35,168 bases of DNA, from the IMG/VR virus record IMGVR_UViG_3300046012_000900, positions 1 through 35,168 of that record. One strand, 5' to 3'. The position numbers were made by a program, and so were the translations under genes. Below the pieces are notes generated by a model. It was not told the DNA's origin and did not search any database. It was given only the letters and a program-made list of their open reading frames with translations. The stretch is from a virus. Position 1 is the first letter of the stretch; each line of letters begins with the position of its first letter. Of the stretch, positions 1,686 through 33,981 are shown piece by piece.

Positions 1686-1712
1686 TTTGACCTCCAATTT
1701 AAATAAAGCATA

Positions 1713-2622: not shown

Positions 2623-2658
2623 TTCAATTTTCCTCGTCGTTTATTTATTGGTAGGTCA

Positions 2659-2667: not shown

Positions 2668-2712
2668 TGATACTTTTTGTTTTGATAGAATACTAAGTCA
2701 TATGGATAGCCG

Positions 2713-2761
2713 GTCATCTGTGTGTGAGAATGGAATAGCTCTTATTGCAAAGCCAGATGAC
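2713..2761. other. 8-bp perfect inverted repeat after the 91-aa CxxC gene
   Basis: GTCATCTG at 2713-2720 is matched by CAGATGAC at 2754-2761, ending just at the stop codon of the leftward CxxC gene. The 33-base interval contains a smaller inverted repeat (AATA and TATT around GCTCT). No run of T follows in either direction, so it is not a standard intrinsic terminator. It may be an RNA stem at the end of that gene's message, or chance. Confidence 0.25.
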
Positions 2762-3594: not shown

Positions 3595-4147
3595 CAAACT
3601 TAATCTCCGCCGACCAGCCAACGTCAGTAACTTTACTTACATCCTCTGGCCTAGGTGAAACAGTAAATCTCAATGCCCAACGACCTGTATTGGCCGTATA
3701 GTCTCCTTTATCGTCAAGAACAACTACAACATGCTGCCCTTCAAAAAAATCATAAGATAATATTGGAAAATAGTCTTGAGGGAGCGTATAAGTTTCTTTC
3801 GAAAACAATCCGTCGCCTCCACTTCTTTTTACTTCCTTTACATTCACAAGGCTGAGGTAAACAAATTTATTGTCACCAACATCTATACCAATGTAAAGAT
3901 GTTTTTTATATGTTTCGATATCTTCATCTACAAGTTCAATACCTTTGCTTTTTAGAATTTCCACTCTGGTTCCATATTGAAATTCCATTAACTTCTTGTG
4001 GTTTCCAACATAATTATGCTTCCCAAATTGATGTACAATTCCATTTCGGGGCGACGCAAACTCCCTTTCTAAAAGTTCTTTGTGGTCGTTACGTTCTTTA
4101 AGTTCAAGCTCTTGCGTAGACATATCAGATTCAACCTCTTCACTCAT
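3578..4147 (-). CDS. Hypothetical protein (189 aa)
   Basis: Not recognised. The start overlaps the upstream stop (ATGA) and the end overlaps the HicB-like gene by 17 bases. The N-terminal 30 residues are charged helix (TQELELKERNDHKELLEREF). The rest looks like a compact alpha/beta or all-beta domain (KKHLYIGIDVGDNKFVYLSL, YDFFEGQHVVVVLDDKGDYT, RWALRFTVS). IGIDVGDNKFVYL looks superficially like the phosphate-1 motif of actin/RNase-H folds (DxGxxxxxxL), but no other motif of that fold is seen. No signal or membrane segment. Confidence 0.6.
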   Translation of the reverse strand: MSEEVESDMSTQELELKERNDHKELLEREFASPRNGIVHQFGKHNYVGNHKKLMEFQYGTRVEILKSKGIELVDEDIETYKKHLYIGIDVGDNKFVYLSLVNVKEVKRSGGDGLFSKETYTLPQDYFPILSYDFFEGQHVVVVLDDKGDYTANTGRWALRFTVSPRPEDVSKVTDVGWSAEIKFDERRR

Positions 4148-4521
4148 TCAGCTATCTCCATCGCCCCGACGATTTTATCTGTATCATATTTATTAACAGC
4201 AACGGCCGGTTCCTCCTTATTTTCCACTGGGCCGATCATTCTAATCTCACAATCAACCTCCCAATAAGAGCGGCCATTCTCATAATAATTATCCAAATAT
4301 CCCTTGTATTTTTCAACTCTATTTTCCAGTCGGGTAACCAATTCTTTTAAATTATCGCATTCCTTTATCCATTTTTCTAAAAAGTCCCTAGGCTCGCAAG
4401 AAAAGAACTCAAGAGCCATTTCAGTATCATGCAATTCTTTCTTAAGTTTTGCCTCAAACTCTTTATCCTCTTTAACGTGGATTTCTTTAAATTCACCAGC
4501 TTCTTGTTTCTCTTCATTCAT
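4144..4521 (-). CDS. Hypothetical coiled-coil protein (125 aa)
   Basis: Not recognised. A long charged coiled coil covers about residues 15-80 (KEDKEFEAKLKKELHDTEMA, LKELVTRLENRVEKYKGYL), then a short strand-like part (YWEVDCEIRMIGPVENKEEP). Both ends overlap neighbours by four bases (ATGA), so it lies in the middle of a coupled set of five genes. No signal peptide, so cytoplasmic. The coil suggests oligomers or partner binding, possibly with the coiled coil of the HicB-like protein two genes on; this is inference. Confidence 0.6.
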   Translation of the reverse strand: MNEEKQEAGEFKEIHVKEDKEFEAKLKKELHDTEMALEFFSCEPRDFLEKWIKECDNLKELVTRLENRVEKYKGYLDNYYENGRSYWEVDCEIRMIGPVENKEEPAVAVNKYDTDKIVGAMEIAE

Positions 4522-4979
4522 TCGCTTATCTCCCCATCAATTGCATTTGCGCCCATATTATCAGACAGTATCTTATCGAGTCTACCGTCCCGCTTCATTT
4601 CAAGGATTGCCTCTACATGTTTACCTTCTGCGAACTTTCTCAATTGGTCATTGGTCATCATAGCAGGAGAGCTTGATTTATCTGTTTCCTCTTTAATGAT
4701 AATAGCCTGATGAGGCAAGCCCAATCCTCTTTCTAATATTATCTCAGAGGCTTTTATTCTGTATTTAAGGTCTTCTGATTCATCTTTCATTAGGGCATAT
4801 AAGAAGTCTATTGCATCAAGACTCGCTTCAGAAGACCGTCTACGAGCTTCATAAGCGATGGCATTGAATCTTTCTTGGCCTTTTAGCTTTCCGATCTCAC
4901 GAACAGTCAACTTTAACCCCTTCTCTATAGGAGGTTCCATCAACAATCTACTGGTAGGGGATATGTATTCGCTCATCAT
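4518..4979 (-). CDS. Hypothetical helical protein, first gene of leftward cluster (153 aa)
   Basis: Two adjacent ATGs (4979, 4976) are possible starts; neither has a strong ribosome site. Residues 55-95 (ASLDAIDFLYALMKDESEDL, then RIKASEIILERGLGLPHQA) resemble the HEAT-like helical pair common in phage terminase small subunits and other small DNA-packaging or DNA-binding proteins. The virion genes lie far away, so a terminase role is weakly supported. The N-terminus is basic and the C-terminus acidic. It begins the run that continues with four overlapping genes, and faces a strong rightward promoter across a 199-base intergenic region. Confidence 0.55.
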   Translation of the reverse strand: MMSEYISPTSRLLMEPPIEKGLKLTVREIGKLKGQERFNAIAYEARRRSSEASLDAIDFLYALMKDESEDLKYRIKASEIILERGLGLPHQAIIIKEETDKSSSPAMMTNDQLRKFAEGKHVEAILEMKRDGRLDKILSDNMGANAIDGEISE

Positions 4980-5121
4980 AATGCTTTTGAACTATAACAT
5001 AACAGTAAATTAATTTATATCGTACTAAGCTGATCAAATGAATAATGAATAAAAGCTAAATAACTTACTAAATACCTAATACCTCACACCTATTCAAAAG
5101 TAAAAAAACCTGCTATAGCAC

Positions 5122-5149
5122 TTGACACAATAATTTTGTTGTATATAAT
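5122..5149 (+). promoter_or_regulatory. Consensus sigma-70 promoter
   Basis: TTGACA at 5122-5127 and TATAAT at 5144-5149 match the consensus exactly with a 16-bp spacer. It lies 30 bases before the ATG at 5179 and should drive the rightward small-gene chain to 6362. The spacer holds a short inverted repeat (ACAA and TTGT around AATAATTT), which could be an operator half-site pair. The rest of the 199-base region (4980-5178) is A+T-rich with a tandem TAATACC-like repeat; I see no terminator and no convincing leftward promoter. Confidence 0.75.
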
Positions 5150-5178
5150 CACATAATGTAGATTTATAGGATTAACTG

Positions 5179-5487
5179 ATGGCTGGCTCTGTATTAACTA
5201 AAATACCATTTAAAGTAAGAAAACTTACGAACATTGAATATGATTTGCTTGGTGGCGCTTTAGATCCAAGTAACGCGCGCATTGAATATATCTGTTGTGA
5301 TATTACTGCATATTTGCGTGATTGCGTCACCACGTTTGGGTTCATACCTATTATAGTTATTTGGCTTTATAATCCTCTCTTAAAAAAACCTCTGTCCTTC
5401 GATCATCTTCCTGGCAAGATTACCTACATTAAAGGAAGCCCCATGTATAAAAAGCTTATGAGCCTATGGGGTGAGAATGATGAATGA
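5179..5487 (+). CDS. Hypothetical protein, first gene of rightward small-gene chain (102 aa)
   Basis: ATG at 5179 with AGGA 7 bases upstream and a consensus promoter just before it. Not recognised. The middle is hydrophobic (CVTTFGFIPIIVIWLYNPLL) and could touch or cross the membrane, but may be a buried strand/helix. The basic N-terminus (TKIPFKVRKL) and lack of cleavage site argue against secretion. Two adjacent cysteines (YICCD) precede the hydrophobic part. It overlaps the next gene. As the first gene behind a strong promoter it is probably an early, host-directed gene; this is inference. Confidence 0.6.
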   Translation: MAGSVLTKIPFKVRKLTNIEYDLLGGALDPSNARIEYICCDITAYLRDCVTTFGFIPIIVIWLYNPLLKKPLSFDHLPGKITYIKGSPMYKKLMSLWGENDE

Positions 5488-5770
5488 TATTAATAATACT
5501 CCTTTCTGTATGAACAAAAATAATTCAGAAAAAATAATCATCATTGTTCAATATAGTTGGTTTAATGGTAAAGTATTGATTCATTATCATCCCGGCAATG
5601 AGAGGGCAAAGGAGCTCCTGAAAGAGATTTCCTCTAAGTCCAAGCGCGCTTTTGGTAAAAGAAGAAAGTCTTTTTTTAAACATGAAGTAGGCTTACTTAA
5701 AAATAGTTCTTTATGGGATGTTGAGTTGATTGAGGATAAATTTGGAATGAAGAGGATTGCTTATGTTTAA
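5477..5770 (+). CDS. Hypothetical protein (97 aa)
   Basis: Start ATG at 5477 or 5480; both follow GGGG at a usable spacing, while the GTG at 5471 overlaps that site. Not recognised. It has a hydrophobic strand (EKIIIIVQYSWF), then a basic helix (ELLKEISSKSKRAFGKRRKS) that could bind nucleic acid or ribosomes. It overlaps the gene before and the gene after by a few bases, so it belongs to the same transcript. Confidence 0.58.
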   Translation: MMNDINNTPFCMNKNNSEKIIIIVQYSWFNGKVLIHYHPGNERAKELLKEISSKSKRAFGKRRKSFFKHEVGLLKNSSLWDVELIEDKFGMKRIAYV

Positions 5771-6068
5771 GACTAAAGTTGTTAGAAATTATGTTAATCA
5801 TGTTTTGGGTCTTCCACGTATCAACATAGAAGGGGAGCCGGTTCATAAAGAAATGATTTTTACTCCACGAGAGGTTCTGATTAAGATCATTGGTGACCGC
5901 ATGATAACGGAAGGCTACTACAAAGGGTTCTATAATTTTACCTCCCGTAATGAAGTTAGATCACCCAACGTATGGGAAAGGATTAAATCTTTCTTTTCAG
6001 ACAGAGTGCTAACGAAATGGATAGTAGATATTGATGGGATAAGGGAAGGCAAAGAGGAGAACAAATAA
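5763..6068 (+). CDS. Hypothetical protein (101 aa)
   Basis: ATG at 5763 has GAGGA six bases upstream; a TTG at 5757 is in frame but sits in that site. Not recognised. It is basic overall, with VVRNYVNHVLGLPRINIEG, then a helix (TPREVLIKIIGDRMITEGYY), and ends EGKEENK. No cysteines, no signal, no clear membrane segment. The stop TAA overlaps the following mini-ORF's ATG (TAATG). It shares its transcript with the genes from 5179. Confidence 0.58.
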   Translation: MFKTKVVRNYVNHVLGLPRINIEGEPVHKEMIFTPREVLIKIIGDRMITEGYYKGFYNFTSRNEVRSPNVWERIKSFFSDRVLTKWIVDIDGIREGKEENK

Positions 6069-6100
6069 TGGAGTTTAAAAGAAGAGAAAGGAGAATTTAA
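6068..6100 (+). CDS. Possible 10-codon mini-ORF
   Basis: ATG at 6068 overlaps the previous stop (TAATG) and is preceded by GAGGAG at 8 bases. It encodes MEFKRRERRI and its stop again overlaps the next ATG as TAATG. It may be a true minigene, a device that hands ribosomes from one gene to the next, or simply a purine-rich spacer that supplies the next ribosome site (AAAGGAG). The very basic product (5 Lys/Arg of 10) has no known family. Confidence 0.3.
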   Translation: MEFKRRERRI

Positions 6101-6210
6101 TGGTGGAATTGGCAGCTAAATTTTATATTTGGAAGCAAGTGATCGGATTATTTATTGTGTTAGTTGTTTGCCCATTGTTAATCTTATATTTAAAAAGGAA
6201 AAACAAATGA
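6100..6210 (+). CDS. 36-residue single-span membrane protein
   Basis: ATG at 6100 has AAGGAG six bases upstream, an excellent site. The 36 residues are one membrane span (VIGLFIVLVVCPLLILYL) with a short N-terminus and a basic tail KRKNK, so the tail is likely cytoplasmic. The next gene starts within its stop (ATGA). Small phage proteins like this can be holin-type, toxin-like or regulators of a host membrane protein; nothing here decides which, and no endolysin is nearby. Confidence 0.55.
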   Translation: MVELAAKFYIWKQVIGLFIVLVVCPLLILYLKRKNK

Positions 6211-6362
6211 TTCACGGTGACTGTGTCGCAACAATTATTCTTCTAATCATATTAGGTATGATTTCTTCAAGGATTGCCGACATCCGAGATGAAATTGTTT
6301 ATTTTAATAGGGCTTCGAAAGCTCAAATACTAGAAAAATATTCAAAAACACATAAATATTAA
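6207..6362 (+). CDS. 51-residue single-span membrane protein
   Basis: ATG at 6207 overlaps the previous stop (ATGA) with AAGGA seven bases upstream; a longer in-frame version from a TTG at 6129 would run across the coupled 36-residue gene and is less likely. Residues 8-19 (ATIILLIILGMI) span the membrane, followed by SSRIADIRDEI and a basic helix (KAQILEKYSKTHKY). The architecture is like that of the 50-residue protein encoded at 13992-14144. Candidate holin/spanin-like or host-directed membrane protein; function unknown. Confidence 0.55.
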   Translation: MIHGDCVATIILLIILGMISSRIADIRDEIVYFNRASKAQILEKYSKTHKY

Positions 6363-6387
6363 ATAAGCCATCAACCTAAATAAACTC

Positions 6388-6416
6388 TTTACATCCAGTC
6401 TCTTATGTAGTAGATT
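6388..6416 (+). promoter_or_regulatory. Probable promoter for second barrel gene
   Basis: TTTACA at 6388-6393 and TAGATT at 6411-6416 with a 17-bp spacer give a fair sigma-70 promoter, 36 bases before the ATG at 6452. It would allow separate expression of the secreted protein, because the preceding gene ends at 6362 and the gap is 89 bases. Confidence 0.42.
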
Positions 6417-6451
6417 CAAAGTTAGTTAGTTATTTCCCTGGAGGAATTTTT

Positions 6452-6970
6452 ATGTTAAAGAACATTATTTTTTCGTTTCTAGTTCTGTTTTCAAGTTTAA
6501 GCGCTGCTGCCAATTTATCCCTTTTCCCTTATGTGGGTTTTGACATGTCAGTCCGCTCTAGCGATTTTCCACCCCATAGAGGCAAGTCATTATTTAATCG
6601 ACCTAATTTTACGCCTTCTATCGCTGCTGGGGTTAACTTTACCCATTGCTTAGGGTTAGAGGCCAGTTATCACAAAAGCTCTCCCAGCAAAGTAGATCAC
6701 TTTGTGTTCCACGTTCTTGGCTATCTCCCATTATGCGACCTTACAAACAAACTATATGCCGGTATTGGCTTCTCTGTAATCAAACCATATAATAAATGCT
6801 TCAGCGCATCTCCTGTTGCCCCTAGCGTTACTGCTGGCTGGTATCATGGATTCAATGAACAGCTAGGCTTAAGGATTCACGGTGATAGTAAGTTTATAAA
6901 TGCATTACGCAACGACAAACCAATTATTAAATCTATTGGTGTTGGCGCTGGATTAGTGTATAATTTCTAA
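6452..6970 (+). CDS. Secreted outer-membrane beta-barrel-like protein (172 aa)
   Basis: GGAGG lies seven bases before the ATG. The N-terminus is a signal peptide (NIIFSFLVLFSSLSAAA) with likely cleavage before NLSLFPYVGF. The mature part has amphipathic strand-like runs (FTPSIAAGVNFTHCLGLEAS, KLYAGIGFSVI, GWYHGFNEQLGLRIHGDS) and ends GAGLVYNF. A final Phe preceded by alternating hydrophobics is the usual beta-signal for outer-membrane insertion. Size suits an 8-stranded OmpA/OMP_b-brl type barrel. It is alone on its transcript, with a promoter before it and a strong terminator after it, typical of a moron-type cargo gene. Confidence 0.7.
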   Translation: MLKNIIFSFLVLFSSLSAAANLSLFPYVGFDMSVRSSDFPPHRGKSLFNRPNFTPSIAAGVNFTHCLGLEASYHKSSPSKVDHFVFHVLGYLPLCDLTNKLYAGIGFSVIKPYNKCFSASPVAPSVTAGWYHGFNEQLGLRIHGDSKFINALRNDKPIIKSIGVGAGLVYNF

Positions 6971-7012
6971 AGCTAAGTCTCAAACAGTCGGGCTTCCTTG
7001 GTCTTAGCGCGA

Positions 7013-7050
7013 CCCCTCTTCCAGAGATGACTACTGGTAGAGGGGTTTTT
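7013..7050 (+). terminator. Intrinsic terminator after barrel gene
   Basis: CCCCTCTTCCAG (7013-7024) pairs with CTGGTAGAGGGG (7034-7045): 7 plus 4 base pairs with one T/T mismatch and a 9-base loop, followed directly by five T. It lies 43 bases after the stop of the barrel gene and ends rightward transcription there. Confidence 0.88.
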
Positions 7051-7063
7051 ATTTGGAGAAAAT

Positions 7064-7255
7064 ATGAAAAGCCACTACATTATTATTGATGGAAAAATTT
7101 CCGATCTAGATTCCTTTGAAGGCTTGGTAAATGATTGGCTACTCCAAGGATATGAACTTGCAGGCGAGCTTTTAATGCACGAAGGAAAGTTCTATCAATC
7201 CCTGATAAAACCAAAGGGTAGCGACATAAGCATGGAAGATGAAGAAGACGATTGA
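7064..7255 (+). CDS. DUF1737-like small protein (63 aa)
   Basis: ATG at 7064 has GGAG five bases upstream. The pattern (YIIIDGKISDLDSFEGLVND, then LLQGYELAGELLMHEGKFYQ, then SLIKP) fits DUF1737: a strand, a helix, the G(Y/W)EL turn, and a GKFYQ strand. The family is short and of unknown function, and found in bacteria and phages. The acidic tail (MEDEEDD) is extra. The preceding terminator ends at 7050, so it needs readthrough or an unseen promoter. Confidence 0.62.
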   Translation: MKSHYIIIDGKISDLDSFEGLVNDWLLQGYELAGELLMHEGKFYQSLIKPKGSDISMEDEEDD

Positions 7256-7257
7256 TT

Positions 7258-7416
7258 CTATTTTTTTCCCTCTAAGCGCATAAGAGTCTCTAGCATCTTA
7301 GCCAAAGCCCCCATTACCCCACACCTCAGGAAATCTACATCCAAACTTAATTCATTAACCTGTTTTAATACATGCTCTATTTTTTCGCTCATCTTTTGAG
7401 TATCAGAATCTTTCAT
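7258..7416 (-). CDS. 52-residue helical hypothetical protein
   Basis: The frame runs from ATG at 7416 to TAG at 7258, starting 3 bases after the stop of the preceding leftward gene. No good ribosome site, so translation would depend on coupling. The product is almost fully helical with heptad-like spacing (KMSEKIEHVLKQVNELSLDV, then MGALAKMLETLMRLEGKK), a likely coiled-coil or helical hairpin. No family recognised. It ends 3 bases from the end of the facing DUF1737 gene. Confidence 0.48.
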   Translation of the reverse strand: MKDSDTQKMSEKIEHVLKQVNELSLDVDFLRCGVMGALAKMLETLMRLEGKK

Positions 7417-7419
7417 CAA

Positions 7420-7554
7420 TCAAACCAACCATGCAATAGCAAAACAACAAACAACGGTTGCGAAAAATGCAAAAATAACAATCGCAAAAATCTGCTGATA
7501 ATCGCTCACCATTTTCTCCAAAGCGGAGCGACGCATCTGCTGAATATTCAACAT
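7420..7554 (-). CDS. 44-residue single-span membrane protein
   Basis: Runs from ATG at 7554 to TGA at 7420. A charged N-terminal 20 residues (QQMRRSALEKMVSDYQQ) precede one long membrane span (IFAIVIFAFFATVVCCFAIA) and the protein ends WLV. The positive N-terminus predicts N-in orientation. The ribosome site is weak, and the frame lies between two other leftward small genes, which supports it by position. Candidate holin-like or other small membrane effector; unproven. Confidence 0.45.
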   Translation of the reverse strand: MLNIQQMRRSALEKMVSDYQQIFAIVIFAFFATVVCCFAIAWLV

Positions 7555-7575
7555 TGCGAGTATTCAATATTAAAC

Positions 7576-7797
7576 TTAGCTTAAGGCGCCATGCGTCGCA
7601 TGACCTATATCATGCTCTAGTTTCAAATGATTTGCAAGCATTCCCTTCAGCCTCTTTAACGCAGACCTACCACGCTCCCTCTCCAATGGCGCAGTCTCAA
7701 TCACCTTGTCCATCTCAAAGATGTAAGCCTCCGTGATCCGAATCTGATGCTCATAGTAACTCCTACTCTCATCCAACCTGGGTGCACTCGATACCAT
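7576..7797 (-). CDS. Hypothetical helical protein (73 aa)
   Basis: ATG at 7797 has GGAGGG six bases upstream and a good promoter about 45 bases before it. The protein is helical and charged (DESRSYYEHQIRITEAYIFE, PLERERGRSALKRLKGMLAN) with a His-rich end (HLKLEHDIGHATHG). No family recognised. It starts a three-gene leftward set (73, 44 and 52 residues). Confidence 0.6.
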   Translation of the reverse strand: MVSSAPRLDESRSYYEHQIRITEAYIFEMDKVIETAPLERERGRSALKRLKGMLANHLKLEHDIGHATHGALS

Positions 7798-7838
7798 ATG
7801 AAGCCCTCCAATTATTCAAGCCGCCAACTCATATCAGA

Positions 7839-7867
7839 AATATAACATAAGCTTAAATGCGTGTCAA
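7839..7867 (-). promoter_or_regulatory. Sigma-70 promoter for leftward small-gene trio
   Basis: On the minus strand TTGACA (7867-7862) is followed after 17 bp by TATATT (7844-7839): a perfect -35 and a 5/6 -10 with ideal spacing. Transcription would start near 7832, about 35 bases before the ATG at 7797. The rest of the 145-base gap up to 7942 is A+T-rich with nothing else I can identify. Confidence 0.72.
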
Positions 7868-7942
7868 TACTACAATCTAATGTATTTTGAATAACAACTA
7901 AAAACTTAACACAGCGACCGTCATTCCATTTTTTTACAAAAC

Positions 7943-8449
7943 CTATGCTTTGGTGTCAGATGAACCAGAAAACCTCTTGGTGGAGCTCACGTTAAGAAAT
8001 TTACGCATCTGCTGGATGTATTCTTTCGCCCTTTCTGGATCGCAACCAGACCAACTCTCTTCCAACGCCAAAACCGGCTCACCACGAGAAAATAAAAAAG
8101 ATGAGTTAGAAGCTTTCTTGCATACTTCAAGAAACTGAAGCGGACTTCGCGGCGGCCTATCAACATACCCTGAAAGACCTTTTTTAATATAGGCCACGCC
8201 GGTAAATATTTGCTTGATGTTAATATCGCTTAAGACTTGCATGTACCCGGCGTACAGGAACATCCGTTCAGACTCCTCGTGCCAAAGGCATTGATAACCA
8301 CCAAATGAAACCGCTAAGTGCGCAAAAGCCAAGTTCAGGACCAAATTCACTTGTGAATATTCATATTCCCGCAAGGAAGCCCTAACGTGCAACCAATCGT
8401 AGAACGGCTGCTCCGTAAGCTCTGGAATGACTGCAATTAGCTCTTTCAA
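7943..8449 (-). CDS. Lambda-P-like replication protein, probable helicase loader (168 aa)
   Basis: Its ATG overlaps the stop of the replication initiator (ATGA), the usual O-P gene order. The N-terminal part has paired helices (TEQPFYDWLHVRASLREYEY). Residues about 85-112 (IFTGVAYIKKGLSGYVDRPP, then SPLQFLEVCKKA) resemble the lambda P region where a run of residues precedes PSPxxFxxWC. The usual size is 180-240 residues, so it is short. Expected role: bring the host replicative helicase DnaB to the initiator bound at the origin. Identification rests on position and one motif; a generic small phage protein cannot be excluded. Confidence 0.55.
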   Translation of the reverse strand: MKELIAVIPELTEQPFYDWLHVRASLREYEYSQVNLVLNLAFAHLAVSFGGYQCLWHEESERMFLYAGYMQVLSDINIKQIFTGVAYIKKGLSGYVDRPPRSPLQFLEVCKKASNSSFLFSRGEPVLALEESWSGCDPERAKEYIQQMRKFLNVSSTKRFSGSSDTKA

Positions 8450-9844: not shown

Positions 9845-9873
9845 TTGACAGATATCTAACCGATGACTATCAT
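9845..9873 (+). promoter_or_regulatory. Promoter of ERF-CsrA operon
   Basis: TTGACA (9845-9850), 17-bp spacer, TATCAT (9868-9873): 6/6 and 5/6 matches. The start would be near 9880, which rules out in-frame starts before that and supports the ATG at 9911 (or 9905) for the ERF gene. It overlaps the oppositely directed promoter at 9869-9897. Confidence 0.65.
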
Positions 9874-9897
9874 CCTGATATTGGTAATTTTTGTCAA
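9869..9897 (-). promoter_or_regulatory. Possible promoter of the ribbon-helix-helix gene
   Basis: On the minus strand TTGACA (9897-9892), 17-bp spacer, GATGAT (9874-9869; 4/6). Its -10 overlaps the -10 of the rightward promoter, so the two could not be occupied at the same time. The -10 is weak, so confidence is moderate. Confidence 0.42.
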
Positions 9898-9910
9898 GAG
9901 GGGAATGGAG

Positions 9911-10585
9911 ATGAATAAGTCTGAAAACATTAATGAGTTGGCAACTGCTTTATCGACCTTGCAAGGTGAGATAGAGGATGTTTACAAGGATAGGAAGGGG
10001 TATGGATATTCTTATGCCGATCTATCGTCTGTATTAAATATAGCAAGGCCTGTTTTAGCCAAGAATGGTTTAGCTGTAAGTCAGTTGTGCGGTCAGGCGA
10101 CTGAGTGTGTGGTTGTTGAGACCATCTTAATGCACAAATCAGGGCAATGGATTAGTTGTGTTACTGAGATGAGGATGATTGTTGGAAAAGACAAGCAAGG
10201 TAAAGATTTAAATGCAGCTCAAGCGGCGGGTGGCATAATCTCTTATGCGCGCCGTTATGCGTTGTCGGCTATTCTTGGTATTACGCAGACTGATAATGAT
10301 GCTGCTGGCGAAGAAGATGTTGTGCCTAAAAACAATAAGCCTAGTCAGCCTCAACCTCAATGGATGTCTACTCATTTTGAGGATTCTCAATTGAGAAACG
10401 AAAAGGTACGTGATATTACCTTTAAAGATTTATCCAGGCTTATTACAATAAAGGGCGTTAAGTCTGATGAAACCGATGGTTGGCTAAAAAAATCAAATGT
10501 GGGTTCATTGAAGGATATAAAAGAGATTACAGCGCAGGCGTTAATTGAAAAGCTTGAGTCGCGTCAGGTAGAAGTTTGTAACTAA
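9911..10585 (+). CDS. erf: ERF-family single-strand annealing protein (224 aa)
   Basis: Start ATG at 9911 ([10 protein letters not shown]) is chosen because the promoter start lies near 9880 and GAGG is about 9 bases upstream; ATG 9905 would add two residues. Hallmarks of the ERF family: [20 protein letters not shown] near residues 35-55, a SGQWI strand, then [19 protein letters not shown] near 112-130 followed by [12 protein letters not shown] proteins form rings on single-stranded DNA and anneal complementary strands, working in phage recombination and genome circularisation, usually with an exonuclease or nuclease; a VRR-NUC nuclease is encoded six genes on. The C-terminal 75 residues after a Pro/Gln linker are more variable. 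Confidence 0.88.
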
Positions 10586-12659: not shown

Positions 12660-13029
12660 CATCAGAATCCCTGAGCGTAGGATCCAATATGATTATTTCA
12701 AATGGCTATTCTACGCTCATCGATCGGCATACGAATTGACATTTCATGTTCCGAGCGGTGGCTCCAGAAAAAGCCTGATAGAGGGCGTCAACCTTAAGCG
12801 CCAGGGCGTTAAGGCGGGTATTCTTGATATATTCATGTTGGTTCGTAAAAAAGACTACAGCGGGCTTATAATGGAGATTAAACGCGATAGAAAATGTAAG
12901 GTTTCAGTAGAGCAACAGAAAATGTTAGGGTTATTTAAAGAGCAGGGGTTCTATACTGGTGTTTGTTATGGTTTTGATGACTTACTTAAAACAACAGATA
13001 TGTACCTGGCTTTACCTGATATCCATTGA
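12631..13029 (+). CDS. VRR-NUC domain nuclease (132 aa)
   Basis: No ATG precedes the domain; TTG at 12631 has GAGG nine bases upstream, and a TTG at 12616 is also in frame. The pattern is that of VRR-NUC: PERRIQYDYFKWL (E15 and Q19), the VPSGGSR turn (40-46), GVKAGILDIFM (D66, where family members usually have PD), MEIKR (E82, K84) and EQQ (95-96), so the PD-(D/E)xK catalytic set is complete. Phage members act as structure-specific or junction nucleases in replication and recombination, matching the ERF gene upstream. It overlaps the 258-residue gene by 29 bases and the facing MarR gene by 18. Confidence 0.82.
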   Translation: MAATLRNPNNIRIPERRIQYDYFKWLFYAHRSAYELTFHVPSGGSRKSLIEGVNLKRQGVKAGILDIFMLVRKKDYSGLIMEIKRDRKCKVSVEQQKMLGLFKEQGFYTGVCYGFDDLLKTTDMYLALPDIH

Positions 13030-13449
13030 TTGTAAGACGGAATGCAGCCCTCCTAGTATTTTATTGTAATCAGCCGCTCCAATTAATGCCGTAACCTCAG
13101 TTTTAGCTGATTCCCAATTATCATGCAAATCGTCAACTTTCTGTCGACCTTGTTTGGTGATTACATAGGCAGCCACCCTTTTATCTTTTAATTTTATGCT
13201 CTCTAAAAATCCTTTCGCAAGTAACGGTTTTACTAGTCTATTGATGGTGGAACGATGGCTTGATATTGCATTGGCAACTTCAGTTGCAGGCTTTGCAGAT
13301 AATGTAAGGAAATCGTATAGGAGGGAATATTGGCAGTATGTCAGGCCTGTATCCGCGAAAAAACTATCATATAATCTTGTGATTGCGCGAGATGTGCGCC
13401 TTAGCTCATAACATAAGCATTCAGAATTCATGTCAATTTTATCTTTCAT
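13012..13449 (-). CDS. MarR-family transcription regulator (145 aa)
   Basis: The ATG overlaps the preceding stop (ATGA), with GAGG nine bases before. The protein has the MarR layout: N-terminal dimer helices (YELRRTSRAITRLYDSFFAD), winged helix with recognition region AISSHRSTINRLVKPLLAKG (residues 61-80), wing KDKRVAAYVITKQG, then long C-terminal helices for dimerisation. Ligand- or redox-sensing MarR proteins release DNA on signal; Cys11, Cys13 and Cys39 lie near the dimer region. Its target is not evident. It is last in a leftward set of four and converges with the VRR-NUC gene. Confidence 0.82.
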   Translation of the reverse strand: MKDKIDMNSECLCYELRRTSRAITRLYDSFFADTGLTYCQYSLLYDFLTLSAKPATEVANAISSHRSTINRLVKPLLAKGFLESIKLKDKRVAAYVITKQGRQKVDDLHDNWESAKTEVTALIGAADYNKILGGLHSVLQSMDIR

Positions 13450-24318: not shown

Positions 24319-25835
24319 TGTCTACCATCTCCAAGTCGCATGGCTAACAACATTCTCCCCATTCTGAAATCCCCTCCCAATACATTGCTTGAAAATTGAA
24401 GAGTCATTTCACGAAATTGTGTACGAACGTCTATTCTTGAAGTATTCTCATCGAAATTAAATACAATAGATTGCTCAGCTGCGCGCGGGTATGTTTTTCC
24501 TGCAACTGTTAGCGTCATTGGCCCTGCTTGGTCTGCATCAAGTTCAATTCTTTCCAAATATTCCCATCTATCTATTCCTTGGAATCTACCATCAGCGCCG
24601 ATAGCGCAAGGGGCTATATATGAGCTCTTAACAGAAAATGGGATTGGTAAAGAAGGTGTAATACCACCGAATACTTGATCTAACCCAACCTCATGGATCC
24701 AAACATCATAAGTACCTCCAATATTAGGTACATTTTCACACCAAATTGGTTTCGTGAATGTCTGCTCAAATGAACCACATCCCCTATTAATTGCCGTGTC
24801 ATACCATTTTCTTTCTCTTACATTGTAAACAAGCGCTCTATTACACTCAGTGACATTTCCGTGAGGATAAAACCACCATATCTCCCCATAATGCGTGTAT
24901 TTAGTCGCCCACACCTTTTGCCGTTGACTGTAATTCAAGTTACTAAAAAAATAATTAAGAGACTGGCTGTTAGGTAGCTCAACCACAGTACCGTTATAAG
25001 CTAAGAACCGATCTACACCGGCCCAAAAATAAGTGCCATCGTATTCTATAACTGAGTTAGAAGACAAAATAGATGACTCTGTGGTTACTGTATCAAAATT
25101 AAACAGCGTTAAAGGGTTGCCGGTAAAGGTGCATCTGATAACAGAGTCCAGGCTCCAAAACAGTCCAGCGGGGCTTGAAGTTCCTCCCCGGACCGGTAGA
25201 CCTGCCACTATCTTTTGATCGGTAATTCTAGCGCTGCCGCCCCCTGCAATATCAATTGGATTATTGGCGGAAGACCATTGCACAAACCCATCATTTCCGT
25301 AATAAAACATATAGGGATGAAGAGATACTATGCCGCCAGAAATGGTGACACCAGTCGATACGAGGGGGGCGTTAGCCTCGGCATCCCCGTAATAAACCGG
25401 TGTCTCAACATCGTTATTGATGTCAAATAAATTCCTGCCAGGGAATGCAAAAAATGAACTTTTATTTGAAACATCATCGTACATGACATCAAAATTCCAG
25501 ATATAATCTGGCTGAGCAGGGAATAAAGCAGGCGTCCTATCTGTAGGACCCGCAATAACCTGGAATCCCTGATTTACAATTACAAAACGTAAAGACGATT
25601 GGTCTCCCACATAAACATTAAAATTTGGACTTATCGGCAAAGTATAGGTTCCACGTGGAACATTAGCTAAGCCTGTCAATAGCCGCAAATATCCACCCAT
25701 CTTCCTGGGTTTACCACGATAGAATCTGCACCATTGACCATCTATCCATTCGACGCTATCAAATTCAGTCCCGTCTCTCCTAATTCCAGGCTGGGTCGGA
25801 ATCTCATACATTTGAGTCTGCATTTGAGTACCCAT
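24315..25835 (-). CDS. P22 gp10-like tail hub / packaged-DNA stabilization protein (506 aa)
   Basis: The start overlaps the stop of the upstream adaptor gene (TAATG). The sequence has the tail-hub pattern: IPTQPGIRRDGTEFDSVEWI, DGQWCRFYRGKPRKMGGYL, then many short beta units (FAFPGRNLFDI, WAGVDRFLAYNG, EIWWFYPHGNVTECNRALVY, NVRERKWYDTAINRG) typical of a beta-propeller, and a C-terminal beta part (IELDADQAGPMTLTVAGKTY). Length 506 against 472 for P22 gp10. In P22 this plugs the DNA exit channel and carries the tail needle. The upstream adaptor and the nearby ejection genes agree with this. Confidence 0.8.
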   Translation of the reverse strand: MGTQMQTQMYEIPTQPGIRRDGTEFDSVEWIDGQWCRFYRGKPRKMGGYLRLLTGLANVPRGTYTLPISPNFNVYVGDQSSLRFVIVNQGFQVIAGPTDRTPALFPAQPDYIWNFDVMYDDVSNKSSFFAFPGRNLFDINNDVETPVYYGDAEANAPLVSTGVTISGGIVSLHPYMFYYGNDGFVQWSSANNPIDIAGGGSARITDQKIVAGLPVRGGTSSPAGLFWSLDSVIRCTFTGNPLTLFNFDTVTTESSILSSNSVIEYDGTYFWAGVDRFLAYNGTVVELPNSQSLNYFFSNLNYSQRQKVWATKYTHYGEIWWFYPHGNVTECNRALVYNVRERKWYDTAINRGCGSFEQTFTKPIWCENVPNIGGTYDVWIHEVGLDQVFGGITPSLPIPFSVKSSYIAPCAIGADGRFQGIDRWEYLERIELDADQAGPMTLTVAGKTYPRAAEQSIVFNFDENTSRIDVRTQFREMTLQFSSNVLGGDFRMGRMLLAMRLGDGRQ

Positions 25836-26476
25836 TAGCTGACATTCCTCTTGGACGATCTATCCTGATATCTGGCCTCGTTTTGAGCATTTAAGGCGGC
25901 AGTGCGCGTCTTATATTCACTCGTCCAAACAGGTATTCTTTCGTCTGTCCTTAAGAAGGTTGCTGTTTCAAGCAAGCACGCATACAACAAAATGTCAGGA
26001 ATGTAATCAGTTAGCCAATTGGTTTGAATTAGTAGAGTAATGGGTTCTACAAGCTCGATATATCCCACTCTGAATGGGTAGGCCAAATCTGGGGTTGGGG
26101 CAAGAAACCAATTATAGAACCCCTCATCTGCATAGAATTGAGGCTGAGCTGTCACTGTTGGATCGGGAGAGTACAGCATGCAGTATTCTAGTGGGCGCTC
26201 ATACAATAGTTTTTGATTAAAACTAGGAGGAGCTATTCCAGCCTCTCTAATATCAAAATGTGTCGTATATCTCCATCTGGCGGGTTTTGGGATTATATTA
26301 TTTCCCGCAATCATGGTTGCAACCGAATATTGTTCGAACCCCACTAAAGGGCAGTCCCTGCATATTCTTGCTTGAGCATTAGAAATAAAATTAGGAATTT
26401 GAGCTACAAACGAATCGCTTGTGTTATCAAGCCACGCACTGATTTGCGTTGATAGAGATTGGTATGTCATTCCCAT
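25835..26476 (-). CDS. Phage head-tail adaptor, SU10 type (213 aa)
   Basis: The pattern matches the SU10-like adaptor family: TYQSLSTQISAWLDNTSDSF, VAQIPNFISNAQARICRDCP, NIIPKPARWRYTTHFDIRE, PQFYADEGFYNWFLAPTPD, FRVGYIELVEPITLL, then WLTDYIPDILLYACLLETAT. It joins portal and tail hub in short-tailed or related phages. The gene directly before the gp10-like hub is the expected place. Start ATG at 26476 has GAGGA about 11 bases upstream; a second ATG two codons on is possible. Ends in a polar, basic tail. Confidence 0.75.
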   Translation of the reverse strand: MGMTYQSLSTQISAWLDNTSDSFVAQIPNFISNAQARICRDCPLVGFEQYSVATMIAGNNIIPKPARWRYTTHFDIREAGIAPPSFNQKLLYERPLEYCMLYSPDPTVTAQPQFYADEGFYNWFLAPTPDLAYPFRVGYIELVEPITLLIQTNWLTDYIPDILLYACLLETATFLRTDERIPVWTSEYKTRTAALNAQNEARYQDRSSKRNVS

Positions 26477-26650: not shown

Positions 26651-27232
26651 TTAACGAACCCTTCTAGCACCTATAAATCCATACGCGCCCATAGTGCTAA
26701 CGGCAAAAGTAATAAATGTGCTCAAATAAATGGTTGTTGTTCCAGACAGGCTAAAACGCCTATTTCCTGTGACAAGCGCTGTTAACTGGCCAGCAGAAGC
26801 GGCGTATCCTGGCATCTGCGAATATGCGCCAGACGCTGGCAATGTAGGAAGCGTTGCACTTGTAGAGCTAATCCACGCGACCATGTTAGTCGTTGTTGTT
26901 CCAGCGGCAGGGGAAGAAATAACGTTTCCGTACACTTCCCAATCCCCAGCCGTCAATGATATTGACGTCACATTGGTTGCATTATTATTAGCCACACCAA
27001 CTTGAGATCCAGCTAAAATCGTACTTGAGATATACTCTCCCACGGTTCCGGCGGCTGCATTATCATTGGTGGTCGTGCCAACAATACCGCCAGTCGTTGG
27101 GCTGAACGTAACGCTGGTGGATGTAGCGGCACCCAGCGTAGGCGTAACAAGCGTTGGCGACGTAGAACCCACAAAGGTTCCAGAACCCGTTGAACCTGAT
27201 AAACCCGTATTTACTGAGTTAATCGTTGTCAT
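26651..27232 (-). CDS. Short tail-fibre-like protein (193 aa)
   Basis: The N-terminus (MTTINSVNTGLSGSTGSGTF, then VGSTSPTLVTPTLGAATST) is a widespread fibre motif built from GxSGSTGxGxFVGSxSPTLxTPxLG. The C-terminal half (SLTAGDWEVYGNVISSPAAG, LTALVTGNRRFSLSGTTTIY, MGAYGFIGARRVR) reads as a compact beta-sandwich, probably a receptor or sugar-binding head similar to C1q/jelly-roll types. It starts right after the previous fibre gene's stop. Role: adhesin or decoration of the tail. Confidence 0.7.
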   Translation of the reverse strand: MTTINSVNTGLSGSTGSGTFVGSTSPTLVTPTLGAATSTSVTFSPTTGGIVGTTTNDNAAAGTVGEYISSTILAGSQVGVANNNATNVTSISLTAGDWEVYGNVISSPAAGTTTTNMVAWISSTSATLPTLPASGAYSQMPGYAASAGQLTALVTGNRRFSLSGTTTIYLSTFITFAVSTMGAYGFIGARRVR

Positions 27233-27907
27233 TTATACATACTCCGTAACAATCACATATCCCGCAGTTCCAGCGCCACCGGCTGCCTGCGTACCATTAG
27301 CTGAAATAGAAGCCCCCGATCCACCGCTTCCAAATCCGGTCCCAGCATTTCCTGCACTATTAAATACTTCTTTAGCTCCTCCACCATATTGACTTGCAGC
27401 GCCTCTACCACTAGTAAGAATACCTGTCGCAAAAAAACCAATCCCTAATCCGCCTATTTGACCTGGTGTTCTTATGCTTCCGCCACTTCCTCCTGTCCCA
27501 CCGCTTGCCCCAAAATTAATTTGAGTTGCTGAAGATGCGCCCCCAGCGCCACCTGTCCCGCCGTTCGCAGAAATTAAAGCACCCACAGAGGTATTTCCGC
27601 CATTACCACCAGCATTATTACCAGCTGAACCCGCTGAACCGGCAGCGCCAATGGTGACCGCTTGAGATGCCCCTACGGTTGCAGCGGTAAACACACCTCT
27701 CGCATATTCACCGCTTCCTCCACCCGCAGCGGCGCTGACAGCAGACGCACCATTTGTTGCAGCACCACCGCCTCCACCGCCTCCGCCAATCGATTCAATG
27801 ACACAATATTTCATGTTGGCTGTTGGTGTATATGTCCCACTTCCCGTAAACACCTGTATTGCTACAACTGATACTGGATTTAAATTAATTGCGTTATTTG
27901 TGGTCAT
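27233..27907 (-). CDS. Glycine-rich tail fibre tip protein (224 aa)
   Basis: ATG at 27907 is chosen because AAGGA lies five bases before it; a longer frame to 27979 lies within the upstream gene and has no site. After MTTNNAINLNPVSVVAIQVF comes the entry GSGTYTPTANMKYCVIESIG, then long Gly runs (GGGGGGGG, AAGGGSGEYARG, GNNAGGNGGNTSVGALISAN), ending GGAGTAGYVIVTEYV. This is the glycine-rich fibre domain, which folds as a lattice of polyglycine II helices in phages such as T4-like ones, and the loops set the host range. Highly biased composition. Confidence 0.75.
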   Translation of the reverse strand: MTTNNAINLNPVSVVAIQVFTGSGTYTPTANMKYCVIESIGGGGGGGGAATNGASAVSAAAGGGSGEYARGVFTAATVGASQAVTIGAAGSAGSAGNNAGGNGGNTSVGALISANGGTGGAGGASSATQINFGASGGTGGSGGSIRTPGQIGGLGIGFFATGILTSGRGAASQYGGGAKEVFNSAGNAGTGFGSGGSGASISANGTQAAGGAGTAGYVIVTEYV

Positions 27908-27915
27908 ATTTTTCC

Positions 27916-30747
27916 TTAAACTACCGTTATATTTCCCTGAATGCCGAAACAAACCCATGTCGTATTTGCCACAACACACCTTATTTGTGCTATCGTGTCT
28001 CCCGCATTCGTAGAAGCCAATGAGCCTCCTGTGCCTGTCGTTGTCACAGCGCTACCGATATGTATTAATTGAGAAGCATTCTGAGCAACTTTCCAACCGC
28101 CCGCGCCCAAGCCGCCCACTTGGATCGTGTCGCCCACCGCAGCCGTTGATGGTAACGTAATCGTGCAAAGCCCAGCGTTATTTGAGATGTAAGCGTTATT
28201 AACAGCAGCAGACTGTGAAGTGCCACTCACCACTGTCATTGGTAAACCTTGCGTTGTTGCAAGAGTTCCTGATGTTGGTAATGTAACGCTCGTGGTTGCA
28301 GTGGCCGTAAGAGTCGTTGTGAATGCGCCAGATAACGTTAAGCTTCCGCCTAATGTGATCGTACTGGAACCATTATTTACCCCAGTTCCACCATAAGATG
28401 CGCCCAATACAGTGCCAAGCACTAAAGTGCCTGTTAAATTAATGGAATTTGAACTCGATGAGCCAATATATATATCAAGTGCTTTGACGTTTCCGATCCG
28501 CATGTTAGATGGATTGAAAGTGTCTAATATGCTGACAGTGGATGGCATATAATATATGTTATACAAAGCGCCTGCACCGATTGTCTGGGATACACTGACC
28601 GTCATGCTGGTGGGGCCGCCAACTGCTGTTATCCTTGCCGGTGTTCCTGTGGCCGGAGCAAACTCACCCCCTATCATGTCTGAACTAAAATTCGTGCCAG
28701 TACCAGTGACTGTTGTTGTTGATTGCGCTATTGTTCCAGCATATTCGCTGGCTGTAATGGCCTTATAAGCTGTGCCAATACTAGGGGACCCAGGTGTTCC
28801 GGTATGACCTATAAAAGAGCCATATGTTGAAATTGAGCTCGTTGCCCCATCAATCATGGCACCATAATAATAAATAACAGATTGTGAGGCGACGGTTTGA
28901 GAAACGCTGGCCGTAAACGTGGTTAACGTTAACCAACCTATAATATAAGCAACAACTCCGTTTGCAAAAACAAACGTCGCTCCAATGGCTAACTCAGGTG
29001 CCAAAGCATCCCCAACAAGTGTGACGGTTGTGCCAGATTGAGACGCGGTTCTTGTTGCTGAAATACTTCTGTAAACCGTTAAATTGCCGCCAAATAAAAA
29101 GTTTTGAGTGTCGCTTGACAGTAATGTGCCGCTGACAGGTACAGTGACGTTTGTGCTACCGGTGGTTGTTAGCGTTAATGAATTTGCACCACTAGTAACT
29201 AAGTCGCCTGCCAGCGTAATGGTATTAGAATTAGCGACCCCAGTTCCACCATAAGATGCGCCCAATACAGTGCCAAGCACTAAAGTGCCTGTTAAATTAA
29301 TGGAATTTGAACTCGATGAGCCAATATATATATCTGATGCATTAATATTACCAATTCTCATTGAGCTTGGTGTAAGGGCGTCTAAAAAGCTATCCGTTGT
29401 ACCGCAGTAATAGACTGCATAGCGTGTGCCTGCACCAATTGTTTGAGAAACAGAAACCGTTAATTGCGTTGCAGAATCTCTGGATATAATACGGCATGGC
29501 GTTCCCGTTGCTGGAGCGAACCATCCACCTGCCAAATGTGAGTTTACAGTGAAAAAAGTGCTGCTACCTGTTACGATTGTACCACTTTGAGAAATCGTCC
29601 CTGCACTTGAAGTGTTAGGAACAACGGCAAAACCATATGAATTTGAGCCGTCGGCAAAGCCTAAACCAATATGGCCCATATACGGACCAAAACTGCTACA
29701 ATACCCTAAGCCAGACGATAAGGCTGGATCTCCCGCCCCAATCATGCAAGAAGATGTGTGCGCGACCGCACCTTGAGAAACAACGGTTGCTGAATTATAT
29801 GTCGTTAAAGTCGTAGCATTAACCCATGCCGTTATGGGTGACTCAACTCCATTGTCAAACTTAAATACGGAACCCACTATTAATGGCGAAACACCTGCTG
29901 AAGGATTTGTTATTGTAATCGTTCTGCCAGATTGAGAACATGCTGCAATTGTAGTACCAACTGACTCAACTCCATCAACAATAATATTAGAAGCTGTTGG
30001 TGATGATATGACGGTTCCTGTGGTTGGAAGAGTTAAGCTTGTGCTTCCAGTGGTTGCAAACGTAACATCGTTTGCACCTGATGTCGTTAAATTACCACCC
30101 AAAGTAATCGTGCTAGAGCCATTGTTGACACCTGTCCCCCCAGAAGAAGGAGCCAATACGGTGGTAAGTGCCAAATTATTAATAGTAATCGTGTGCGCGG
30201 AGGAATTAACACTAAGATAGGTTGTTCCGCCACCACTTATCGTTAATGCATTCGCAAGGCCATCTTGAAGGCTAATCAAGTTATCGCCTGTTACGCCATT
30301 AAAATATAATGAAGAAAAACTCGCGGCAGCATCATTGCCAAGCAACGTACCACCATAATGAATATGATAAGTTGTTGGGGATGAGACAGTTTGAGATACG
30401 CTTAGAGTAAGAGTTGTAGAGTTTGCAACAGAAACAATTCTCCCACTAAAGTTATCGGTATTGGTGCCTGTTGAAAAGACTAATAATCCACCAATCATAG
30501 CAGAAGTGAACCCAGCCCCAGTGACAGTCGTGCCAGATTGAGTGCCTGTTGATGTTGCAACAGAAGGGCAGCTACCGAAAAAACCACCCGTTGCACCAAA
30601 AAAATTAGATACGCTAACATCATTGCTATAGCAACTAATTCTTAATGTTTCATTAAATGCAAAAGGAGTGTCGCTCAATAGCGTATATATTTGCGTTGGA
30701 TTATCACAAAAAACCAATTTACCTGATTGAGTATCTGGACATGCCAT
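27916..30747 (-). CDS. Repeat-built tail fibre (943 aa)
   Basis: The protein is Ser/Thr/Gly-rich beta sequence. Three kinds of repeat are visible. First, five copies of a 60-residue unit QSGT..VTG....IGG.F..ATGT..RI...T.LTVSVSQT..Y.IYY at about 70-132, 272-330, 387-449, 570-629 and 675-734. Second, two IGN..A.DIYIGSSSS blocks at 465-500 and 751-786. Third, three GGTGV..STITLGG...SGA blocks at 203-248, 500-546 and 786-832. The C-terminus (GLGAGGWKVAQNASQLIHIG to GNITVV) is a known fibre end domain. Expected role: long shaft with binding units. The duplicate blocks share 98 identical bases. Confidence 0.78.
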   Translation of the reverse strand: MACPDTQSGKLVFCDNPTQIYTLLSDTPFAFNETLRISCYSNDVSVSNFFGATGGFFGSCPSVATSTGTQSGTTVTGAGFTSAMIGGLLVFSTGTNTDNFSGRIVSVANSTTLTLSVSQTVSSPTTYHIHYGGTLLGNDAAASFSSLYFNGVTGDNLISLQDGLANALTISGGGTTYLSVNSSAHTITINNLALTTVLAPSSGGTGVNNGSSTITLGGNLTTSGANDVTFATTGSTSLTLPTTGTVISSPTASNIIVDGVESVGTTIAACSQSGRTITITNPSAGVSPLIVGSVFKFDNGVESPITAWVNATTLTTYNSATVVSQGAVAHTSSCMIGAGDPALSSGLGYCSSFGPYMGHIGLGFADGSNSYGFAVVPNTSSAGTISQSGTIVTGSSTFFTVNSHLAGGWFAPATGTPCRIISRDSATQLTVSVSQTIGAGTRYAVYYCGTTDSFLDALTPSSMRIGNINASDIYIGSSSSNSINLTGTLVLGTVLGASYGGTGVANSNTITLAGDLVTSGANSLTLTTTGSTNVTVPVSGTLLSSDTQNFLFGGNLTVYRSISATRTASQSGTTVTLVGDALAPELAIGATFVFANGVVAYIIGWLTLTTFTASVSQTVASQSVIYYYGAMIDGATSSISTYGSFIGHTGTPGSPSIGTAYKAITASEYAGTIAQSTTTVTGTGTNFSSDMIGGEFAPATGTPARITAVGGPTSMTVSVSQTIGAGALYNIYYMPSTVSILDTFNPSNMRIGNVKALDIYIGSSSSNSINLTGTLVLGTVLGASYGGTGVNNGSSTITLGGSLTLSGAFTTTLTATATTSVTLPTSGTLATTQGLPMTVVSGTSQSAAVNNAYISNNAGLCTITLPSTAAVGDTIQVGGLGAGGWKVAQNASQLIHIGSAVTTTGTGGSLASTNAGDTIAQIRCVVANTTWVCFGIQGNITVV
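28379..28476. repeat. 98-bp direct repeat, copy 1 (inside 943-aa fibre)
   Basis: 98 bases identical, as far as I can compare by eye, to 29237-29334. The copies are 858 bases apart (286 codons), so both keep the fibre frame. They encode residues about 758-790, from DIYIGSSSSN to YGGTGV. Such exactness suggests recent duplication or gene conversion. Confidence 0.85.
29237..29334. repeat. 98-bp direct repeat, copy 2 (inside 943-aa fibre)
   Basis: The second copy of the identical 98-base block, encoding residues about 472-504 of the fibre. Recombination between the copies would delete or duplicate exactly 286 codons in frame. Confidence 0.85.
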
Positions 30748-32480: not shown

Positions 32481-32890
32481 TGAGATCCCCAATTGAAATT
32501 CTGAAGAGCCTGTAACGGGCTTATAGAATAGTTATATCCATCATAAACAGACCCCAAAATAGAAGCAGGCTGCTGAATCGCTGAATGTACTGGCAATTGA
32601 TTTTGACCATGCGTTAACGTAGACCCTTGAGGTAACCTAGGCAGAGTCACTGGAATTGGATCGGGAGGCAATATAGGAGCCCTCCCCTGTTCATTTGGCT
32701 TATCTGCAAATGGCTTCCCTACAATCATCCCTGTCCAAACTAAGGAGTTTCCTCGCCATTCCATTTGACGAACCATGTCAACACGGTTAAAAACAAACCC
32801 AGAATAGTCGCAAATTCCAAGAGCTTTAGGGTTCCTATCATTAACTGTGACATATTTGCCCTTTGGTGAATATCTCAAATCTGTGACCAT
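32477..32890 (-). CDS. Small tail protein, degenerate zinc-finger-like (137 aa)
   Basis: Starts 16 bases inside the adaptor gene. It has the outline of a phage structural family that usually reads RCDxCGFxYKxxELxxxWxGLxVC followed by a Pro-rich stretch: here ICDYSGFVFNRVDMVRQMEW, SLVWTGMIVGKPFADKP and APILPPDPIPVTLP. One finger cysteine (ICD) remains; the second of the pair and the distal pair are gone, so zinc is probably not bound. The C-terminal 50 residues contain Gln/Ser-rich linkers ending with QNFNWGSQ. Function: probably a minor tail or adaptor component. Confidence 0.55.
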   Translation of the reverse strand: MVTDLRYSPKGKYVTVNDRNPKALGICDYSGFVFNRVDMVRQMEWRGNSLVWTGMIVGKPFADKPNEQGRAPILPPDPIPVTLPRLPQGSTLTHGQNQLPVHSAIQQPASILGSVYDGYNYSISPLQALQNFNWGSQ

Positions 32891-33981
32891 CCCTGTAAAT
32901 AATCCCCATAAATCCTTAACGGAACATCCCTTTCAATATCCGATGTGGTTGCATTCTTAAACTCAGAGGTAGCAATACTTTTAAGCTCCATTGTTTTGCT
33001 TAAATCAAATGGTGGAACCTGTATTCCGGGACCACTAGGACTGGAAATTAATTGCCCATTCGGTATAGAAAGAGAAAGCTCATAAGAAAGCTCAGACACA
33101 AGCGCCCTGAAAAATCTAGTCGGAATTGCAGCCGTATTAGAAAGCGACCCTATATCTTGAATAAGCGTAGATGCCGTATACTGCATGGCGTTGTATTGAG
33201 TGTTTGGCGTCGGGTAGATCACTACATACGGATTGACATCTCGCTGAACATAATACTGAGAAGGCCTGCTAGTCGTGTTTTTCTGAGAATATGACTCATA
33301 TTCAGACCTGGAAATTGCAGTCATCAATGTGTCATTTGTGTTACTATTAAAATATAATTGCTGAATATCTAATGTTCCACCACCCGTTTCTCTTACCCTA
33401 AAAGATGTGGCCGCAACAGGAACCGCTATCTGAAACCATACATTTTGAGCAACCACAAAGGTTTGCGCTGCCGGGCTGCCTGCATTTACCCAGGTAACGC
33501 CCGCATCATTTGAATACTCAAAGACTAAATCATAAGAAGTTGTGGTATTGGATTGGATCCCAACCATTTGTATAGCATACTGACTTGCCCAGGTGTAACT
33601 GATATACCCATTTGGAGCATTCTGAGTGCAATTACCTGCCCCACCAAAACAGTTTGCCGCTACACCTCCCGCACTTGAAAATGGTGTTCCACCAAGATTT
33701 CTCGTTGAAGTCCTGATGACAGCCTCTAGGATGTCATTGACACCTGCCGGGAGATAATAGGTGTTTTGATTTGGATTTAAATTCTGAATATTATAGGTAA
33801 CAGTCCATAGATTTAGACCCCTATTCGTCCAGGAAGATAAAATGAAATTAATCCATCTTTGGGCAGTATTGATTAAATCTGCAATTTGATAGGGGGCAAG
33901 AATTCCGACTCTTTTATAAGCTTCTTCAATAATGATATTGGATTGTGTTAATCCAAAGTTGTAGGTGCCTGATGTACTCAA
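32875..33981 (-). CDS. gp4-like head-tail adaptor with inserted beta-domain (368 aa)
   Basis: No ATG is available; the TTG at 33981 has a GGGGGG run just upstream and is the first start after an in-frame stop. Residues 1-85 (NIIIEEAYKRVGILAPYQIA, QRWINFILSSWTNRGLNLWT, YYLPAGVNDILEAVIRT) and 215-368 (TLMTAISRSEYESYSQKNT, GRP-like SRPSQYYVQRDVNP, VIYPTPN, IPTRFFRALVSELSYELSLS) are the adaptor core. Residues about 95-212 are extra, a beta-sandwich with FEYSNDAGVTWVNAG and FRVRETGGGTLDIQQLYF, like carbohydrate-binding folds. The core attaches the tail below the portal. Confidence 0.65.
   Translation of the reverse strand: MSTSGTYNFGLTQSNIIIEEAYKRVGILAPYQIADLINTAQRWINFILSSWTNRGLNLWTVTYNIQNLNPNQNTYYLPAGVNDILEAVIRTSTRNLGGTPFSSAGGVAANCFGGAGNCTQNAPNGYISYTWASQYAIQMVGIQSNTTTSYDLVFEYSNDAGVTWVNAGSPAAQTFVVAQNVWFQIAVPVAATSFRVRETGGGTLDIQQLYFNSNTNDTLMTAISRSEYESYSQKNTTSRPSQYYVQRDVNPYVVIYPTPNTQYNAMQYTASTLIQDIGSLSNTAAIPTRFFRALVSELSYELSLSIPNGQLISSPSGPGIQVPPFDLSKTMELKSIATSEFKNATTSDIERDVPLRIYGDYLQGWSQI

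Follow-up and report, generated by a model that had tools for sequence, protein, structure and literature searches.

An exact repeat in a fibre-like gene

How can two stretches of one phage gene be identical in every base when the modules that carry them have diverged widely? We examined this question in one entire IMG/VR record of 35,168 bp, referred to below as the window. Its sole exact repeat of at least 20 bp was found to be a direct repeat of 98 bp, at 28379-28476 and 29237-29334, with a lag of 858 bp (3 x 286, or 286 codons), and no inverted repeat of at least 20 bp was present in the 35,168 bp. Both copies lie inside one minus-strand open reading frame (ORF) and encode the same 33 residues. 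The preliminary description of this DNA had reported two identical 98-bp blocks 858 bp apart and in frame, and it was exact in length, position and frame. The features of the gene are as follows.

27916-30747, minus strand: fibre-like ORF of 943 aa, with five ~70-aa beta-like repeats, three GGTG linkers and a C-terminal domain; fibre role proposed from position and architecture
29237-29334, minus strand: 98-bp identical block, copy A, residues 472-504, nearer the N-terminus (exact-repeat search)
28379-28476, minus strand: 98-bp identical block, copy B, residues 758-790 (exact-repeat search)
29098-29601, minus strand: diverged module with copy A, residues 383-550 (module alignment)
28240-28743, minus strand: diverged module with copy B, residues 669-836 (module alignment)
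30343-30561, minus strand: beta-like repeat a, residues 63-135 (profile built from these five repeats)
29743-29955, minus strand: beta-like repeat b, residues 265-335 (five-repeat profile)
29395-29604, minus strand: beta-like repeat c, residues 382-451, directly ahead of copy A (five-repeat profile)
28852-29061, minus strand: beta-like repeat d, residues 563-632, between copies A and B (five-repeat profile)
28537-28737, minus strand: beta-like repeat e, residues 671-737, directly ahead of copy B (five-repeat profile)
27919-28200, minus strand: C-terminal domain, residues 850-943, with 41-44% identity to the C-termini of proteins from two related loci (L009 and L010) and from a Microcoleus phage

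The repeat profile was derived from the same five repeats and demonstrates their mutual similarity only, and the label 'beta-like' is a guess from their sequence. Similarity around the block (repeat D1) reaches 162 nt at 83%. The last 94 residues of the ORF share 44% identity with the Microcoleus phage protein, and the C-terminus shares 41-43% with fibre-cassette proteins of L009 and L010. For the module pair, the predicted structure had a mean pLDDT of only 33.5 and no fold search was based on it; a PDB sequence search returned weak matches only (best E 0.0013, a designed repeat protein), which were given no weight.

The gene lies in a variable fibre cassette

The ORF sits in the structural region, within a fibre cassette bounded by two conserved adaptor genes.

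32875-33981, minus strand: first adaptor-like gene (PF24175, E 3.8e-8), a conserved edge of the variable fibre cassette
25835-26476, minus strand: second adaptor-like gene (SU10 adaptor; PF24175, E 4.1e-19), the other cassette edge

When the 943-aa ORF was compared with curated fibre families, no Pfam and no PHROG match was obtained. The two genes that follow, at 27233-27979 and 26651-27232, have matches among the tail-fibre families of PHROG, and the position and architecture of the ORF suggest that it encodes a fibre protein. By the stabilization protein, the closest relatives listed are 51-53% identical to the window. These relatives share the gene order adaptor, cassette, adaptor, stabilization protein where the locus reaches, and their cassette genes differ. 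Both cassette edges were present in 25 of 157 sequences, and the cassette spanned 615 to 8,236 bp among the nine sequences (window included) in which the first adaptor was at least 45% identical. While the adaptor genes at its edges are conserved, the fibre cassette itself is hypervariable.

Five matches were also found in bacterial genome bins, at 46-54% identity in four and 38% in one; they are betaproteobacterial by title or genus, and are too distant for naming a host. Elsewhere in the window, the ORFs at 1927-2622 (minus strand) and 6452-6970 (plus strand) resemble outer-membrane beta-barrel proteins of PF13505, with E 1.7e-7, which passes the cut-off, and 5.3e-4, which does not, respectively. 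Such cargo is unusual in a phage record; perhaps it serves to modify the host surface, or is host DNA. A MarR-like helix-turn-helix protein (E 6.2e-5, just under the Pfam cut-off) is encoded at 13012-13449 on the minus strand, adjoining the structural region.

A patch, not the whole module, appears to have been copied

To separate copying from conservation we compared synonymous positions inside and outside the block. The two modules are genuinely homologous: their alignment shows 65% amino-acid identity. In the gapped module alignment, all 31 full codons of the block were identical, so that 0 of 31 same-residue codons differed synonymously, whereas 56 of 80 flanking ones did (Fisher p about 8e-13). 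DNA identity in the flanks was 54% across the aligned modules, which bears out the earlier statement that the surrounding repeats are diverged. Because the block was selected for being identical, the p-value is only a guide, and the rank of the window in the survey described below is the fairer measure; that survey is ungapped and gives the window flanks 16 synonymous differences in 31 codons. The synonymous contrast excludes both protein-level selection and a recent unit duplication as the cause of the identity. Furthermore, with independent matches simulated over 504 positions, the longest run had a mean of 9.4 when identity was 54% and of 29.7 when it was 85%; a run of at least 98 was never reached in 3,000 simulations at each of four identity levels from 54 to 85%.

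An identical tract within repeats that are otherwise synonymously diverged is the mark of gene conversion, and this is the pattern found in the two modules. Since the flanks are only about 54% identical, the 858-bp unit was not recently duplicated and only a patch was copied; judged from the sequence, the copied piece is a patch of about 98 bp and not the whole module. We consider it likely that recent intragenic gene conversion (homeologous recombination) exchanged this ~98-bp patch between two old, diverged fibre-like modules.

Identical tracts in related loci

Loci for the survey came from two sets of relatives, the 80 best out of at least 594 in one and the 80 best out of at least 575 in the other, with a few others added; the locus that is the window itself (L001) was excluded from the counts. 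The loci are partly near-identical (for example, L013 and L014 at 99.97%) and to that extent not independent, and ORFs were counted in overlapping frames, so one repeat may fill several rows (L045, L081). Across the window and the 156 loci listed, we found 835 intragenic repeat pairs in 105 of 1,219 ORFs of at least 200 aa. The longest exact run had a median of 11 nt and a 99th percentile of 53. The window ranked fourth of the 835 rows by exact run and third by locus; only L010 and one L045 locus, the latter with two rows, stood higher. Long tracts were rare: the window aside, an exact intragenic repeat of at least 90 bp with a lag of more than 100 bp was found in 1 of the 156 loci listed.

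A matching case was seen in L010, among the closest of the matches listed. Diverged modules of a fibre-cassette ORF there carry a 139-bp exact tract (5866-6004 and 6277-6415, lag 411), the longest in the survey among the loci listed, with synonymous differences at 0 of 46 codons in the tract versus 29 of 46 in the flanks, which are 57% identical. Tracts of 46 bp were found in L060 and L072, with flanks at about 54-69%. When direct repeats of at least 40 bp with a lag of 60-8000 were collected from 157 sequences (1,995,334 bases), all 17 had lags that were multiples of 3; some of the 17 (L084, L045) differ in nature, being short tandem repeats. Two neighbouring fibre-cassette ORFs of L009 have a 47-bp tract in common (6942-6988 and 7743-7789), flanked by similar but diverged DNA. 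This tract is an exchange between genes.

We also searched for variation in module number. No close relative or second genome of the same phage was found in IMG/VR and the phage and genome collections searched, leaving the pre-conversion state unseen, and queries with the fibre, the stabilization protein and the modules retrieved no close relative. Because no close relative was found, no length variant of the window fibre was seen. Scanning with the L010 fibre matched five further loci at 34-60% identity, the sixth match being L010 itself. In L159, L160 and L162, an ORF of ~200 aa has one module of the L010 type, compared with four in L010. Over 6.4 kb, L159 and L160 agree at 99.7% and so count as one. 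L161 has four GGTG motifs, but the module pattern did not match it; no ORF of L163 passed the filter in the module scan. By these sequence comparisons, module number varies between related fibre-like proteins over such long distances (34-60% identity). When near-identical contig pairs were compared for indels, most gaps were alignment noise in diverged stretches. In one pair, the ORFs at 4319-5590 of L026 and 5833-8526 of L047 are 99% identical; a 31-nt repeat marks the site of an in-frame indel of 54 nt between them. This was the only clear repeat-flanked case, and it lies in the gene after the stabilization protein, outside the fibre cassette.

Alternative explanations for the identity

The alternative that survives best, though we regard it as improbable, is that a constraint on the DNA or RNA, for example a cis element, a gene that overlaps the block or a site of programmed recombination, keeps the block identical. 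In its favour, both 98-bp copies end at a GGTG junction motif and one edge opens in an alternating AT run. However, we detected no unusual RNA fold on either strand (z -0.98 and -0.56) and no plus-strand ORF of at least 60 aa overlapping either block, and L010 shows the same behaviour with a different 139-bp tract. In addition, the third linker of the gene does not share the block DNA, because no other exact repeat of at least 20 bp exists. The preliminary description had allowed that the block was either recently copied or kept identical. The evidence favours recent copying, and upkeep of the identity is disfavoured by the flank synonymous differences, by the RNA scores and by the finding that one 31-mer from the block had no exact match elsewhere in IMG/VR.

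An assembly artefact, in which a misjoin or collapsed strain variants met at a shared k-mer, comes next and has little probability in our estimation. The window rests on a single IMG/VR record, and 98 bp is close to 99, an assembler k-mer size. Nevertheless, a misjoin would hardly yield two copies that each have their own pair of flanks, four different ones in all, within a single open frame, and tracts of other lengths (139, 47 and 46 bp) occur in other records, all in frame.

Lower still in our ranking is a recent duplication of the whole 286-codon unit that then diverged everywhere except in the block. The homology of the modules is compatible with such an event, but divergence that changed 56 of 80 flank codons synonymously would not spare one stretch of 31. 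Finally, a diversity-generating retroelement with a template and a variable repeat, suggested by near-identical ~100-bp repeats in a fibre-like gene, has next to no chance of being the explanation, since the copies lie in the same gene, are identical and lack adenine-directed differences, and a PF00078 reverse-transcriptase match is absent from the record (the rest of the genome could hold one).

Candidate recombinases and a proposed mechanism

The earlier claim that an ERF annealing protein is encoded in the same genome held up against both profile databases.

9863-10585, plus strand: Erf single-strand annealing protein, candidate recombinase (phrog_155, E 1.1e-41; PF04404, E 2.7e-24)

No Erf, RecT or Rad52 match was found in the L010 record (40,885 bp, which may be incomplete), and an ERF match was found in 3 of the 16 relatives' records tested, which may likewise be incomplete. 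As L010 has its tract and no such match, Erf is only a candidate and its link to the tract is weak; other recombinases or host RecA may act instead. In PMC3945230, Rad52-like phage recombinases, including an Erf protein, are reported to act on short and diverged homology, exchange of ~100-bp pieces within genes is said to occur often, and the shortest segments able to pair are put at 31-34 bp for RecA and 23-27 bp for Red-beta. High-identity patches flanked by diverged shoulders are described in PMC2327257.

The mechanism we propose starts from two observations: the gene is an array of old repeats, and the patch in it is identical while the flanking homologous DNA is about 46% different. The patch very probably derived from the other copy by recombination, and not from DNA-level selection for identity. 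The exchange would have been non-reciprocal, either between repeats of one gene or between two genome copies during replication, and we infer that either the RecA pathway of the host or an annealing protein of the phage, Erf being one candidate, carried it out. The 98-bp perfect repeat is predicted now to allow the 286-codon unit to be lost or gained in frame, because 98 bp exceeds the minimal pairing segments of RecA and Red-beta, as far as these are quoted in PMC3945230. Such a change would involve a GGTG linker and the two beta-like repeats d and e. Altered fibre length or adsorption from such a change is speculative, and any effect of repeat recombination on host range, as first proposed for this repeat, is speculation as well. 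Unlikely, in our estimation, is a broader idea, that the linkers are recurrent recombination seeds in this phage group: conversion would repeatedly reset linker DNA to identity, so that two-domain in-frame gain or loss would stay easy on an evolutionary timescale, giving a self-renewing contingency system of fibre length without a dedicated enzyme.

Relation to known systems

Fibre adhesins are also altered in T4, a different phage type with a different protein, and to our knowledge no gene-conversion patch is known in the T4 adhesin. The T4 changes are duplications of small domains (Tetart 1996, cited in PMC2248197). The same source describes tail-fibre domain duplication or loss in Xanthomonas phages OP1, Xp10 and Xop411, with nearby direct repeats, and proposes recombination. 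These phages resemble the window in having repeated fibre domains, theirs with direct repeats in and around them and a copy number that differs between phages. They differ in that whole domains vary in number, tied to host range, whereas in the window a single gene has what is probably a converted patch within its diverged old modules, and no variant was seen. Repeat-linked duplication and deletion in phage fibres are thus already known from these systems.

The high-identity patch, the diverged shoulders and the intragenic scale of ~100 bp resemble homeologous recombination of the Red or Erf-like type, and the Erf of D3 is active on diverged DNA (PMC2327257 and PMC3945230). Those exchanges, as described there, take place between phages or prophages, whereas the window exchange is between repeats within one gene and has only a candidate recombinase. 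With a few sets of search terms, we found no description of a converted patch inside fibre repeats in the open-access literature.

The window offers a clean natural example of a phage fibre-like gene in which one old module has probably received, not long ago, a ~98-bp patch from another. L010 provides a matching case, and the window makes a concrete prediction, an 858-bp in-frame junction. These data support fibre diversification through intragenic recombination in uncultured phages.
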